Below, piece after piece: positions 15,049-36,273 of a stretch of 64,000 bases of DNA. Where the stretch lies: contig JAOPZF010000120.1 of NCBI GenBank assembly GCA_025964255.1, positions 1-64,000 on the forward strand, in the 5' to 3' direction. Under the pieces are notes generated by a model. It did not search any database and was not told the DNA's origin. It saw nothing but the letters and a program-made list of their open reading frames with translations. Every line of letters begins with the position of its first letter. Positions within the stretch are counted from its first letter, which is position 1. The stretch comes from Solirubrobacterales bacterium (lineage in GTDB: Bacteria > Actinomycetota > Thermoleophilia > Solirubrobacterales > 70-9). A program made the position numbers and the translations under genes.

Positions 15049-15151
15049 CTTTGTAAGAAAAGGGGCACCAGCCCGCCGGTACCGCCTCTAGCTTTGATCC
15101 CTTCAAAAGAAGGTGGGTGCCTACTCAGAATCCCAAGGGGTCCCAAGAAAT

Positions 15152-15165
15152 CGGCTCCCGAGCCG
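15152..15165 (-). terminator. Probable terminator of the hisS-aspS operon
   Basis: CGGCTC-CC-GAGCCG hairpin flanked by AAAT on one side and TTT on the other, about 90 bases past the last gene of the operon. On the minus strand it is followed by ATTTCTTG. Confidence 0.45.
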
Positions 15166-15252
15166 TTTGTGTTGGGTCAAACGGTGAGGCGGCTCTCGTA
15201 CGGGCTCGAGCCTTCGCAAACCGTAGCACCGGAGGACCGCTGCGAAGCAGTC

Positions 15253-31856: not shown

Positions 31857-33164
31857 CTAGGCGACGGTCGTCGCGGTGCGGCGGAACTCTTCGAGCTGCT
31901 CGCCCATCGAATCGAGGTTGCAGGCGACCATTTCCGGCCAGGCCTTGTCCGGGTGGTCGGCGATCGTCTTCAGGCCGTTGCCGGAGATCACCGCGACGAC
32001 CGTCTCGTCCGGGGCGATCTTGCCCTGGGCAGCGAGCTGGCCGACCGTGGCGATCGTGGTGCCGCCGGCGGGCTCGGTGAGGATGCCCTCGGTGGCGCCG
32101 AGCAGGTCGATCGCCTCCCAGATCTCCGGGTCCGACGGCGTCGCCGCCGAGCCGCCGCGGGTGCGGACGGCATCGACGACCAGCGGGCCGTCACCGGGCG
32201 AGCCGATCGCCAACGAGTGGGCGGCGGTGTCCGGGGTCTGCGGCTCGATCTCGCCGCCCTCGAGGATCGCCGTGGCGATCGGGTCACAACCGCCCGCTTG
32301 GGCGATGTTGATCCGGCTGCCCGAGGTCTCGGCGAGGCCGACGATTTCCAGCTCGTTGAGCCCCTTGTGGACGCGCGAGGAGAGCGTGCCGCCGGCGGCC
32401 GGGATCACCCAGTGGTCGGGCGAGGTCCAGCCGAGCTCCTCGACGACCTCGAAGGCCATCGTCTTCGCCCCCTCGGCGTAGAACGGACGCAGGGTGATGT
32501 TGGCGAACTCGATCCCGCTCGCCAGCGAGAGCTCACGACAGGCGCGGTTGGCCTGGTCGTAATTGCCGTCGAGCTGACAGACCTGGGCGCCGAGGGCGCG
32601 ACAGGCTTTCGCCTTCCCCTTCTCCATGTTGCCGGGGTAGAAGACGTAGGCGGTGGCGCCGGCCTTGGCGGCGAGCGCCGCGACCGCGGTCCCGACGTTG
32701 CCGGTCGACACGCAGCCGATCTCGTCTTTGCCCAGCTCCAGCAGACGGGCGATCGACATGCTGACGACGCGGTCCTTGTAGGAGAGCGACGGGCGGTTGG
32801 TCGAGTCGTCCTTCAGATACAGGTTCTTCAGGCCGAACTCGGCGCCGAGCCGGTCGGCCTTGATCAGCGGCGTTTTGCCGGCGAACTGGCCGACCCGCGC
32901 CTGGGCGTCCGCCGATGTGATCGGCAGCAGCTCCTCGAAGCGCCAGATGTTCCAAGGACGACCCTCGAGGCCACGCTCGGCGATCGCCGCGGTGGCGCGC
33001 TCATAGTCGTAATCGATGTCGAGGCCGTCGCCGCAGGCCGGGCACTTGAAGGCCCGCTCTTCCAATGGGGCACGGTAGCCACAGTCCCGGCAGACGAGTT
33101 CCGTCGCGCAGGAACTGGTTCGACGGCCGATAGGCCCCCCCAGACGCTGCGTGTCGTTGCTCAT
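31857..33164 (-). CDS. thrC: Threonine synthase with N-terminal zinc ribbon
   Basis: PLP enzyme converting O-phosphohomoserine to threonine. 435 aa. Residues about 20-50 hold CRDCGYRAPLEERAFKCPAC, a CxxC...CxxC zinc ribbon found in some thrC proteins. The PLP lysine lies in SLSYKDRVVS, and the phosphate loop region in STGNVGTAVAALAAKAG. PAAGGTLSS and ISGNGLKT complete the pattern. A clear AAGGAGG ribosome-binding site sits 7 bases before ATG 33164 and is directly abutted by a compact structured leader, suggesting regulation at translation initiation. An upstream promoter is listed separately. Confidence 0.92.
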   Translation of the reverse strand: MSNDTQRLGGPIGRRTSSCATELVCRDCGYRAPLEERAFKCPACGDGLDIDYDYERATAAIAERGLEGRPWNIWRFEELLPITSADAQARVGQFAGKTPLIKADRLGAEFGLKNLYLKDDSTNRPSLSYKDRVVSMSIARLLELGKDEIGCVSTGNVGTAVAALAAKAGATAYVFYPGNMEKGKAKACRALGAQVCQLDGNYDQANRACRELSLASGIEFANITLRPFYAEGAKTMAFEVVEELGWTSPDHWVIPAAGGTLSSRVHKGLNELEIVGLAETSGSRINIAQAGGCDPIATAILEGGEIEPQTPDTAAHSLAIGSPGDGPLVVDAVRTRGGSAATPSDPEIWEAIDLLGATEGILTEPAGGTTIATVGQLAAQGKIAPDETVVAVISGNGLKTIADHPDKAWPEMVACNLDSMGEQLEEFRRTATTVA

Positions 33165-33373: not shown

Positions 33374-33634
33374 TTGACCCCGCAGGAGCGCTTCGCCCAG
33401 AACCTCCGTCGTCGCCGTCTGGCGGTCGGGATCTCGCAGGAGGAGCTCGGCGAACGCACCGACCTGCACCGGACCGAGATCTCGCTGCTCGAGCGGGCCG
33501 GGCGCGAACCGCGCTTCGCCACGCTGCTGAAGCTCTGCGGGGCGCTCGGCACGTCGCCGAACGACCTCTGTGCGGGAACCGGCTGGGACCACGTGAAGCG
33601 CGTCTTCACGGTCGAGCCGCCCGCCGCGGACTGA
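33374..33634 (+). CDS. Small XRE-type helix-turn-helix regulator
   Basis: 86 aa. The protein is almost entirely one lambda-repressor-like domain: FAQNLRRRRLAVGISQEELGER then LHRTEISLLERAGREPRFATLLKLCGALGTSPNDLCAG. The start is TTG 33374 because no ATG or GTG fits before the domain. It has no effector domain, so it may act as a simple repressor or antitoxin-like protein. It is convergent with the minus-strand RNA/LeuRS region, and the strong hairpin at 33693-33729 lies 58 bases after its stop. Confidence 0.88.
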   Translation: MTPQERFAQNLRRRRLAVGISQEELGERTDLHRTEISLLERAGREPRFATLLKLCGALGTSPNDLCAGTGWDHVKRVFTVEPPAAD

Positions 33635-33692
33635 GCGGCCGTCCGGGACAGCGCAGCGGAGCCGGCCCGCGATGGCGGACCGGCGCCGCGTG

Positions 33693-33891
33693 CTTCTCGT
33701 CACCGGGGCCCCGGTCCGGTGACGAGAAGAGATTTGAGGCGGGGCGGCGCCGACTGCGCGTCGGCGCCTTGGGATCGGGTCGTGACGAACTCTGATCCCG
33801 CTCAGCACCAGGTCCTCCTTTGCCACCCCAAGGCGGTTTCCCCGTCTGAGATTGGCCCCGCCTCTGCCTGTCGGTTGATCCCCCGACAGGG
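33693..33891 (-). ncRNA. Candidate structured non-coding RNA downstream of the LeuRS-like gene
   Basis: On the minus strand the segment starts with hairpin CCTGTCGG/CCGACAGG (33867-33890). GAGGCGGGG (33856-33864) then pairs over more than 100 nt with CCCCGCCTC (33736-33744), a perfect 9-bp long-range helix. Inside are CTCAG/CTGAG (33801-33805 with 33846-33850), GGGATC/GATCCC (33771-33799), and a 9-bp hairpin GGCGCCGAC/GTCGGCGCC (33746-33768). The end is a 14-bp perfect hairpin CTTCTCGTCACCGG/CCGGTGACGAGAAG (33693-33729). A promoter fits at the expected distance. I do not recognise SRP RNA, tmRNA, RNase P or 6S RNA hallmarks. It is also the 354-base gene-free gap between the XRE gene and the LeuRS gene. 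Confidence 0.5.
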
Positions 33892-33897
33892 ATTCCA

Positions 33898-33926
33898 TTC
33901 ATAACAGACCGAGTTGGAGCAATCAA
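33898..33926 (-). promoter_or_regulatory. Sigma70-type promoter for the candidate RNA
   Basis: On the minus strand TTGATT (33921-33926), exactly 17-bp spacer, TATGAA (33898-33903). The predicted start, about 33891, is the first base before the hairpin at 33890-33867. Confidence 0.6.
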
Positions 33927-33988
33927 GGCTGCCTGAACAAAAGGATCCCCCTGCGTTTAGGAACGAGACGAGCACCTTTTCCGCACCA

Positions 33989-36232
33989 CTAGGAGGCTGC
34001 GGTGACGGCGTCCTCGGCGGCGACGGCGATCGTGCTCGCATCGGGCCAGACGCCCGGCAGGTCGTCGCTGGTGAAGCGGCCGGAGTTGATCAAGATCCCC
34101 TCGGCGGCGTGCGGGGCGAACGGCTGCAGGGCGCGCGCAACGAGCAGGATCGCAGCGACCAGCGCCTCGGCATCCGCGGTGTCGAGCTGGCCCTTCTTCT
34201 TCAGCTGTTGCTCGAACTGCTGGATCCGCTCGAAAAGGCGGGTCAGGTTGCGGATCGCCTTGTGCATCTGCAGGTTGGCGGTGTCATCGGCGATCCGCTG
34301 CAGCCCGTTCTCGCACCAGCCGCGCAGCTTCTCCCGCTGTTTCTCGGTCGCCGCCGCCTTCTCCGGATCGTGCTTGGAGCCCTCGAGCTCGACCATTCGA
34401 TCGTGCGCGTAGATCCAGAAGCTGCGGAGGAATTTGTTGGCGAAGCGGATCGCCGCGTCGGACCAGTTCAGCGTCTTCGCCGGCCCCGCCGCCCAGAGGA
34501 CGGCGACGCGGATCGTGTCGGCGCCGAACTGACCCACCAGCTCGTCAGGGTTGACGACGTTGCCGAGGTGCTTCGACATCTTGCGACCCTCCGAGATCAC
34601 CATCTCGTGGAAGAGGCAGCCCTCGAACGGCTCGCCGTCGGTCATGTAGGCGAACTCGCCGTGGTCGCGCAGCGCCTTGGTGACGACCCGCTGGTCGAAG
34701 ACGAAGTTGCCGGAGTCGCCACCGGCGACGAGGCGCTCGGCGGGCAGCCACTTCTTCGACTCGGGGTGGGTGAACATCTGCGTCGCCCGGTCCTCCGGCG
34801 GCAGCGTCGCCGGGACCCAGAGGAAGAGCGCGTCGAAGTGGCAGTCGAGCGTGTCGGTCTCCCGCTTCGCCGGCTTCCCGCAGACGGGGCACTCGACGTC
34901 GACGAAGTCGGAGCGCTCGGCGAGCGGATTCCCTTCGCCGGTCGCCACCAGGTCGCGCGGGAGGACGACGGGCAGGTCGGCCTCGGGCACCGGCACCGGC
35001 CCGTGGTCGGGGCAGTGGATGACCGGGATCGGCGTCCCCCAGGAGCGCTGGCGGGAGATCGAGAAGTCGTTGGCGCGGTAGCGCTTCGCCTCCTGAGCAC
35101 CGGCGACCGGCGCGCTCGGCGGCGGTGCGTCGTCGGCGGGGACCTCCCCCACCTCGACACGGTCGACGCGCTCGGCGATGTCGCGGTCGGCCTCGTCGAC
35201 CGCCGGGATGCCAAGGACGGCGGCGGGGCCGTAGCGGGCGTCGACCAGCGGCGAGACCAGCAGGGGAAGCTCGCCCTTCGGCCCGGAGACCGTCAGACCC
35301 GTGCCGATGACCGGGACCTCTTTGGCGTCGCGGGCGCTCCGCTCCCAGCCGCCCGAGCGCAGCTGCTCGAGCTGCTCGCGCACCTCGCCGGCGGCCAGCG
35401 TCTCCACCAACGGGTGCCGCGGCGAGAGCAGGACGAAGGTCGCCAGGCCCGCGGCGTCCGCGTGCGGCGTGAAGACGGTCAGCGGCCCGTCGGGTCCGTC
35501 GACCTCGAACTCGACCCCGTCGGTGCGCCCGAGGATGAAGCGCTGCGAGGCGAGCGCCAGGTCGTCCCACGGCTGCGCCTCGAGCTTCGCCATGTTGGCG
35601 TCGTTCTCCTCAAGATAAGGCGTGATCTTCAGGAACCAGGTCGGCTTGCGGATCAGCCGCACCTCGTTGTGGCAGCGCCAGCAGGTGCCGCCCTCCTCGA
35701 CCTGGATCGTCGCCAGCGTCGTCTGGCAGGTGTCGCACCAATCGACGGTCGCATCGTCGAGGTAGATCAGCCCCATGTCGTAGAGGGTCAGGAAGAGCCA
35801 CTGCGACCAGCGGTACTGGCCCTCGTCGGAGCTGTAGAAGACGCGGTCGTAGTCGAAGCTGTAGCCGAGTCGCTTCATCTGCTCGAGCATCCGCTCGCCG
35901 CACTGCTCGACCCACTCGGCGGCGGGGATCTGGCGCTCGATCGCGGCGAGCTCGGCGGGCAATCCGAAGGCGTCGAAGCCGAAGCCCATCAGCACGTCAC
36001 GGCCGCGGGCGCGCTGGAAACGGGCGTAGGCGTCGCCGATCGTGTAGTCGCGGACGTGGCCCATGTGCAGGTTGCCCGAGGTGAACGGGCTCGAGGACTT
36101 GACGTAGACGCCGCGCTCGCCATCGGCGGGTGGCGTGGGCGCGTCATAGTCGCCGCGGTCGATCCACGCGGCCTGCCGCTCGGTCTCGATCCGGGCAGCG
36201 TCGTAGGGCGGCTTGCGGGCGTTCTCGGTCAT
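33989..36232 (-). CDS. Divergent leucyl-tRNA synthetase (LeuRS-like class I synthetase)
   Basis: 747 aa from ATG 36232. The class I signatures are SGNLHMGHVRDY near residue 57 and KMSKHLGN near 550 (KMSKS with His last), with FDAFGLPAE and a CWRCHNEV zinc knuckle. It differs from standard bacterial LeuRS in four ways. The editing-domain motif TTRPDT reads TPHADA near 255. The GAVM/AVPAHDERD segment reads AAVLGIPAVDEADRD. The YVGGAEHA region reads RLVAGGDSGN. The protein ends at WPDASTIAV, before the usual VQVNGK C-terminal domain. It is therefore about 100 aa short and probably editing-deficient. It may be the only LeuRS of a divergent lineage or a specialised paralog. Confidence 0.8.
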   Translation of the reverse strand: MTENARKPPYDAARIETERQAAWIDRGDYDAPTPPADGERGVYVKSSSPFTSGNLHMGHVRDYTIGDAYARFQRARGRDVLMGFGFDAFGLPAELAAIERQIPAAEWVEQCGERMLEQMKRLGYSFDYDRVFYSSDEGQYRWSQWLFLTLYDMGLIYLDDATVDWCDTCQTTLATIQVEEGGTCWRCHNEVRLIRKPTWFLKITPYLEENDANMAKLEAQPWDDLALASQRFILGRTDGVEFEVDGPDGPLTVFTPHADAAGLATFVLLSPRHPLVETLAAGEVREQLEQLRSGGWERSARDAKEVPVIGTGLTVSGPKGELPLLVSPLVDARYGPAAVLGIPAVDEADRDIAERVDRVEVGEVPADDAPPPSAPVAGAQEAKRYRANDFSISRQRSWGTPIPVIHCPDHGPVPVPEADLPVVLPRDLVATGEGNPLAERSDFVDVECPVCGKPAKRETDTLDCHFDALFLWVPATLPPEDRATQMFTHPESKKWLPAERLVAGGDSGNFVFDQRVVTKALRDHGEFAYMTDGEPFEGCLFHEMVISEGRKMSKHLGNVVNPDELVGQFGADTIRVAVLWAAGPAKTLNWSDAAIRFANKFLRSFWIYAHDRMVELEGSKHDPEKAAATEKQREKLRGWCENGLQRIADDTANLQMHKAIRNLTRLFERIQQFEQQLKKKGQLDTADAEALVAAILLVARALQPFAPHAAEGILINSGRFTSDDLPGVWPDASTIAVAAEDAVTAAS

Positions 36233-36273
36233 GCAATCAACGTTAGCTGAGGTGCCAAGCGCCACAGCGCCGC

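Follow-up and report, generated by a model that had tools for sequence, protein, structure and literature searches.

Does the gene-free DNA of about 200 nucleotides (nt) downstream of a divergent leucyl-tRNA synthetase (LeuRS) gene in a Solirubrobacterales bacterium encode an RNA of its own, and what might that RNA do? The window analyzed here spans 64,000 nt and is contig C135 (G000) of a 4.0-Mb draft genome. A first-pass annotation had proposed an unrecognized structured RNA with its own promoter at this site, and the compensatory changes, the conserved promoter sequence and the lack of any Rfam match bear this out. We hold with good confidence that the locus specifies an autonomous structured noncoding RNA (ncRNA), single-copy and about 160 to 200 nt long, which would be transcribed on the minus strand from its own sigma-70-type extended -10 promoter and would act in trans; this confidence applies to the autonomous structured ncRNA and not to the anti-Shine-Dalgarno (anti-SD) step weighed below. 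The RNA and its parts are as follows (bp, base pairs).

33736-33891, minus strand: conserved structured ncRNA, a P0 hairpin plus a P1-P4 multibranch domain, defined by covariance models R1 and R2, covariation and folding.
33867-33890, minus strand: P0, the start-proximal 5' hairpin of 8 bp (33890-33883 with 33874-33867), loop GGGAUCAA; 3 pairs changed on both sides.
33855-33864, minus strand: 5' strand of the closing helix P1, GAGGCGGGGC, pairing with 33745-33736.
33736-33745, minus strand: 3' strand of P1, GCCCCGCCUC, pairing with 33864-33855.
33801-33850, minus strand: P2 arm (model helices 3 and 4), which contains the near-invariant core; 3 pairs changed on both sides.
33811-33842, minus strand: near-invariant 32-nt core GGGAAACCGCCUUGGGGUGGCAAAGGAGGACC; one substitution among the complete copies of the genus.
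33771-33799, minus strand: P3 arm with the conserved inner part CGUCAYGA; 5 pairs changed on both sides.
33746-33768, minus strand: P4 hairpin; 3 pairs changed on both sides.

The 199-nt minus-strand form (33891-33693) folds with a predicted energy of -116.2 kcal/mol (z = -6.0), and none of 200 shuffled sequences was as stable, so that together with the covariation in relatives the nested helices go beyond chance, as had been supposed. The start-proximal 8-bp hairpin and the multibranch region with three inner helices (P2, P3 and P4) were found as proposed; the long-range helix 33864-33856 with 33744-33736 is also real, but it has 10 bp rather than 9 because of an extra pair, 33855-33745. A covariance model was first built from only four close relatives (L002-L005), and it scored sequences outside its training set at 149 bits for the window, 98 bits for L007 and L008, 81 bits for L009 and 50 bits for L010. 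In the model-based alignment, to whose model L001, L007, L009 and L010 contributed nothing, 97.4% of the base-pair cells pair and 18 pairs changed on both sides, with a covariation score of 0.367; no shuffle out of 500 reached these values, and sliding the partners by 1 to 3 columns dropped pairing to 33 to 46%. The closing helix P1 alone has 98.7% of its cells paired and 4 pairs changed on both sides (L010 is shifted by one base in the alignment), and a structure-blind MAFFT alignment of 8 copies analyzed with RNAalifold also gave 8 pairs changed on both sides. Compensatory changes are thus present in every major helix (P0, P1, P2, P3 and P4) and in 6 of the 7 modeled helices, the short inner P3 helix varying on one side only. 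Conservation and covariation in relatives, on which the first-pass annotation had let the RNA stand or fall, did not refute it. Because G-U cells clearly exceed A-C cells (42 versus 8), the alignment also favors transcription of the minus strand.

These results bear directly on the view that there is no functional RNA here and that chance complementarity in GC-rich intergenic DNA, with a terminator between convergent genes, explains the locus. The genome is indeed GC rich and an intact copy is missing in two genomes, but the changes in 6 of the 7 helices and the near-invariance of core and promoter speak against it; we give this view almost no weight, and the covariation in the aligned sequences already contradicts it.

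The putative promoter lies immediately upstream of P0.

33921-33926, minus strand: -35 element TTGATT, assigned by sequence; CTTGATTG in 10 of 10 genus members keeping the region, TTGACT in the sister-genus homologue.
33897-33906, minus strand: extended -10 element TGTTATGAAT, identical in 11 of 11 loci including the sister genus.

The -10 hexamer TATGAA occupies 33903-33898, the TG upstream of it makes an extended -10, and 17 nt separate the two hexamers, so the TTGATT/TATGAA pair is present as first described; its sequence is kept in all members that retain the region, and the 17-nt spacing both there and in the sister-genus homologue. A strict promoter consensus scan passed over this site, since it demands a T at position 6 and TATGAA ends in A; nevertheless, conservation across genomes supports a promoter here. 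A covarying structure and a putative promoter sequence of its own (11 loci), the marks of a stand-alone structured ncRNA, therefore occur together at this locus. By eye, an AGCAA...TTGCT-like inverted repeat lies just upstream of the -35 element, and overlaps it, in L007, L008 and L010, and in this divergent subclade it is possibly an operator, perhaps for the neighboring XRE protein.

At the other end, the 14-bp terminal hairpin of the first-pass annotation exists at the expected place, but it is confined to one subclade, lacks a U-tract and falls outside the conserved RNA.

33693-33729, minus strand: 14-bp palindrome downstream of the RNA (33729-33716 with 33706-33693), in L001-L006 and absent from L007-L010.

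Its arms are strongly conserved within that subclade and it sits between convergent genes. It is possibly a two-way terminator; no T-run follows it, and no terminator-like site was found in 33500-34100. We also considered a repeated element and rejected this, for the pattern has a single site in the genome. In the copies read, P1 is followed by a pyrimidine-rich tail, which suggests that the transcript may end soon after P1.

Could the locus instead encode a small protein, whose translation would begin at an ATG within the -10 region or be directed by the Shine-Dalgarno (SD)-like motif? An open reading frame (ORF) of 179 amino acids (aa) starts at 33898 and a perfect SD sequence is present. 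However, copy lengths and core positions differ by non-triplet amounts, stops occur in homologues, no frame is open in all of them, and a conserved start codon is lacking after the SD-like motif (a single GUG occurs there, in the window copy only). Non-triplet variation and the lack of a frame open throughout show that the RNA is noncoding, and a coding function appears extremely improbable.

The RNA is narrowly distributed. A full or partial copy is present in 11 of the 12 genomes of this Solirubrobacterales genus, with a DNA match in 10 of the 11 other genomes. Nine copies are complete (G000, G001, G002 and G005-G010), and that of G011 is interrupted midway by an assembly gap. G003 retains the core and the 3' part without the promoter and the 5' half, by either recent decay or an assembly artifact at the hairpins; its truncated locus (L101:3062-3140) keeps CCTTGGGGTGGCAAAGGAGGACC intact. 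In G004 there is no RNA, and the divergent LeuRS gene is followed directly by the XRE gene. Model R1 matched no other genus of the family at E<=1. In G019, of the sister genus g9, it gave a weak match (17.1 bits, E 0.033) directly downstream of the orthologue of the divergent LeuRS, where the same promoter and a 5' hairpin recur, the closing helix is GAGGCGGGG and the core of the P2 arm is GGUAGGCAAGGGAAAGUCC; model R2, made after adding this sequence, scores it at 76 bits, partly by construction. Just downstream of the G019 homologue, L098:2287-2484 (minus strand) is a remnant of the C-terminal part of the divergent LeuRS, which suggests duplication or replacement of the synthetase-RNA unit. 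R2 found no further convincing copy over 37 genomes (most with genes like the divergent LeuRS, six controls without), and a 24.5-bit match in G017 was rejected as it had neither core nor promoter. Searching the class for the core pattern with at most 3 mismatches returned this genus only plus three near-matches; these, and one exact match in a Chloroflexota genome, have no RNA context and were set aside. Exact core matches in other records come from metagenome-assembled genomes of Solirubrobacterales, Thermoleophilia and Actinobacteria/Actinomycetota, and nothing matched in phage and plasmid collections or viral contigs.

Within the RNA, the 32-nt core stands out, its sole substitution in the genus being GAAA to GGAA in L010. 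This near-invariance suggests P2 as the functional site, and the P2 core is likely to be that site, presented on a scaffold that is variable in sequence and conserved in structure. Within the core, AAAGGAGG is perfectly complementary to the 16S anti-SD sequence CCUCCUUU, and the 16S tail GGCTGGATCACCTCCTTTCT was read at the 16S 3' end in this genome. The core can also form two mutually exclusive hairpins, CCGCC/GGUGG and CCGCCUU/AAGGAGG, each predicted at -4.3 kcal/mol with closing pairs. The core has no conserved antisense target over its full length, the RNA locus itself being the only exact match in four genomes. A 32-nt invariant run inside the divergent LeuRS gene was considered as a pairing site and rejected, since it is the protein motif FDYDRVFYSSD with biased codons.

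From these features a switchable docking mechanism can be sketched. The 5' hairpin covers the RNA start, the 10-bp P1 closes a three-arm junction, and P2 presents the 32-nt domain, which would toggle between two equally stable hairpins. With CCGCC paired to GGUGG, AAAGGAGG would be free; with CCGCCUU paired to AAGGAGG, it would be hidden. The free AAAGGAGG may then dock either with the anti-SD tail of the 16S RNA or with a protein recognizing the motif, and through this docking the RNA would tune translation in trans. The full complementarity of AAAGGAGG to the 16S tail, with no conserved start codon downstream of the motif, leads us to favor switchable docking, either with the anti-SD of the 30S subunit or with such a protein, as the most likely mechanism, yet it is a leading but weak guess and we advance it tentatively. 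Some observations weigh against it. When the whole RNA was folded, L001 and L009 preferred the hidden state and L007 the GGUGG state, the other copies giving a mixed picture; and the anti-SD step is weakened by the G019 homologue, which has AAGGGAAAG in place of AAAGGAGG although its 16S tail is unchanged. Weighing on the reading of the locus as a whole, the RNA appears dispensable, being absent from G004 and truncated in G003, and the covariation alignment was fitted to the structure, with 8 distinct sequences from one genus. If the P2 core truly exposes and hides an anti-SD complement, this would be a stand-alone RNA touching the ribosome by Shine-Dalgarno mimicry.

The neighboring genes offer other readings. 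On the minus strand, in the downstream direction, the order is a glycosyltransferase-like ORF, a GtrA-like ORF (both labeled by sequence inspection), the divergent LeuRS, the RNA, the convergent XRE gene and a threonine-synthase-like gene.

33989-36265, minus strand: divergent second leucyl-tRNA synthetase (LeuRS2), 758 aa, upstream of the RNA; below the TIGR00396 cutoff (436 versus 548 bits).
33374-33634, plus strand: XRE-type helix-turn-helix protein, 86 aa, convergent with the RNA; HTH_3, E 4e-13; kept in the genus.
31857-33164, minus strand: threonine-synthase-like gene, next on the strand of the RNA; TIGR00260 (thrC) above cutoff.

Because the RNA lies between convergent genes and has its own putative promoter, it has no obvious cis target. 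The RNA might still be a cis-acting leader or attenuator of the threonine-synthase-like gene, which is the next gene downstream on the same strand and which, in another genus (g34), directly follows LeuRS2 with no RNA between them. Nonetheless, the convergent XRE gene intervenes in the genus of the window and the RNA and the threonine-synthase-like gene are about 570 nt apart, which makes a leader improbable.

The chief rival to switchable docking is that the RNA is a dedicated partner of LeuRS2, either in a ribonucleoprotein (RNP) or as a regulator or non-canonical substrate of a synthetase that is editing-defective and lacks a C-terminal domain. As first suspected, the LeuRS beside the RNA is divergent: it is a second copy in a genome with a canonical LeuRS of 840 aa (G000:C36; 33% identity over the aligned part), and it falls below the NCBI leuS cutoff. 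LeuRS2 keeps HMGH and KMSK, has TPHADA in place of the editing motif TTRPDT and lacks the C-terminal domain; genes like it have a scattered distribution across the class, occurring in 37 of 399 genomes and 7 of 128 genera at E<=1e-90. The RNA was found solely in genera carrying LeuRS2 and always beside it, also directly downstream in G019, and G019, G316 and G369 have LeuRS paralogues or LeuRS-like genes that adjoin another structured RNA, a tRNA with an insert of about 140 nt in the D-loop. However, gene order is conserved across the whole locus, so the linkage is weak evidence of partnership; LeuRS2 is kept without an intact adjoining RNA in G003, G004, G026 and two further genera; and inspection of the RNA turned up no acceptor, T-arm or CCA of the tRNA type, nor did ARAGORN find anything in it. 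We consider a partnership possible, though less probable than docking.

The tRNA genes with the D-loop insert share the acceptor GCGTCCG and an anticodon loop CUUUGGN or CUUUCAA.

L102:3420-3633; L135, minus strand; L149, about 1250-1555: D-loop-insert tRNAs (ARAGORN did not report the G019 copy).

They directly follow the LeuRS paralogue in G019 and G316, and in G369 the tRNA directly precedes a LeuRS-like ORF without an obvious KMSKS. These genes possibly specify tRNA-derived RNAs of a new kind that are paired with LeuRS paralogues. Homology of the RNA to these giant tRNAs was considered and dropped, as R2 gave no match. That the RNA is an RNP partner or non-canonical substrate of the editing-defective LeuRS within a wider Thermoleophilia pattern, in which LeuRS paralogues are genetically paired with structured RNAs of unusual kinds, tRNAs with large D-loop inserts among them, seems a shade less probable than the partnership as such. 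Should the RNA indeed partner LeuRS2, a class of duplicated synthetases would thereby acquire a role.

How does the RNA compare with known systems? A search of Rfam 15 gave no match at the gathering score and only sub-threshold noise at E<=10 (33600-34000). The earlier failure to match it to signal recognition particle (SRP) RNA, transfer-messenger RNA (tmRNA), RNase P RNA or 6S RNA was confirmed at E<=10, and the first two lie elsewhere in the genome: SRP RNA (RF00169) at G000:C242:19205-19303 and tmRNA (RF00023) at G000:C122:34-395, ARAGORN reporting no tmRNA at the locus. 6S RNA (RF00013 above gathering) was not found at the locus either; a match elsewhere in the window, at 15061-15214 (minus strand), scores 55.2 bits, above gathering. 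Neither ARAGORN nor inspection for a T-arm consensus revealed a tRNA-like RNA. By Rfam 15 and by the literature searched (most subscription papers and preprints being outside the search), this is a new RNA family, whose near-invariant 32-nt domain is amenable to experiment and whose putative promoter predicts the 5' end.

Like 6S RNA and abundant stand-alone bacterial ncRNAs, the RNA is of similar size, intergenic and single-copy with a putative promoter of its own; it does not share the 6S architecture, in which a central bubble interrupts a long hairpin. It shares with T-box riboswitches (RF00230, no match) a place near an aminoacyl-tRNA synthetase gene, but it lies downstream of LeuRS, with its own putative promoter and a convergent gene next. 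A GGGGUGGC-like stretch in the RNA recalls the T-box, which we take to be a resemblance only. LeuRS2 is, like Sulfolobaceae LeuRS-I and haloarchaeal LeuRS2, a second LeuRS beside a canonical one; in Sulfolobaceae LeuRS-I the CP1 editing domain is disrupted and the C-terminus altered (PMC9437257). Unlike those paralogues, the LeuRS2 described here is bacterial and accompanied by a structured RNA gene. Compared with the orphan structured RNA candidates from comparative genomics (PMC2864571, PMC6429828), the present RNA is very narrow (one genus and one sister-genus genome) and absent from Rfam 15, but it is likewise covarying and intergenic and has a conserved core.
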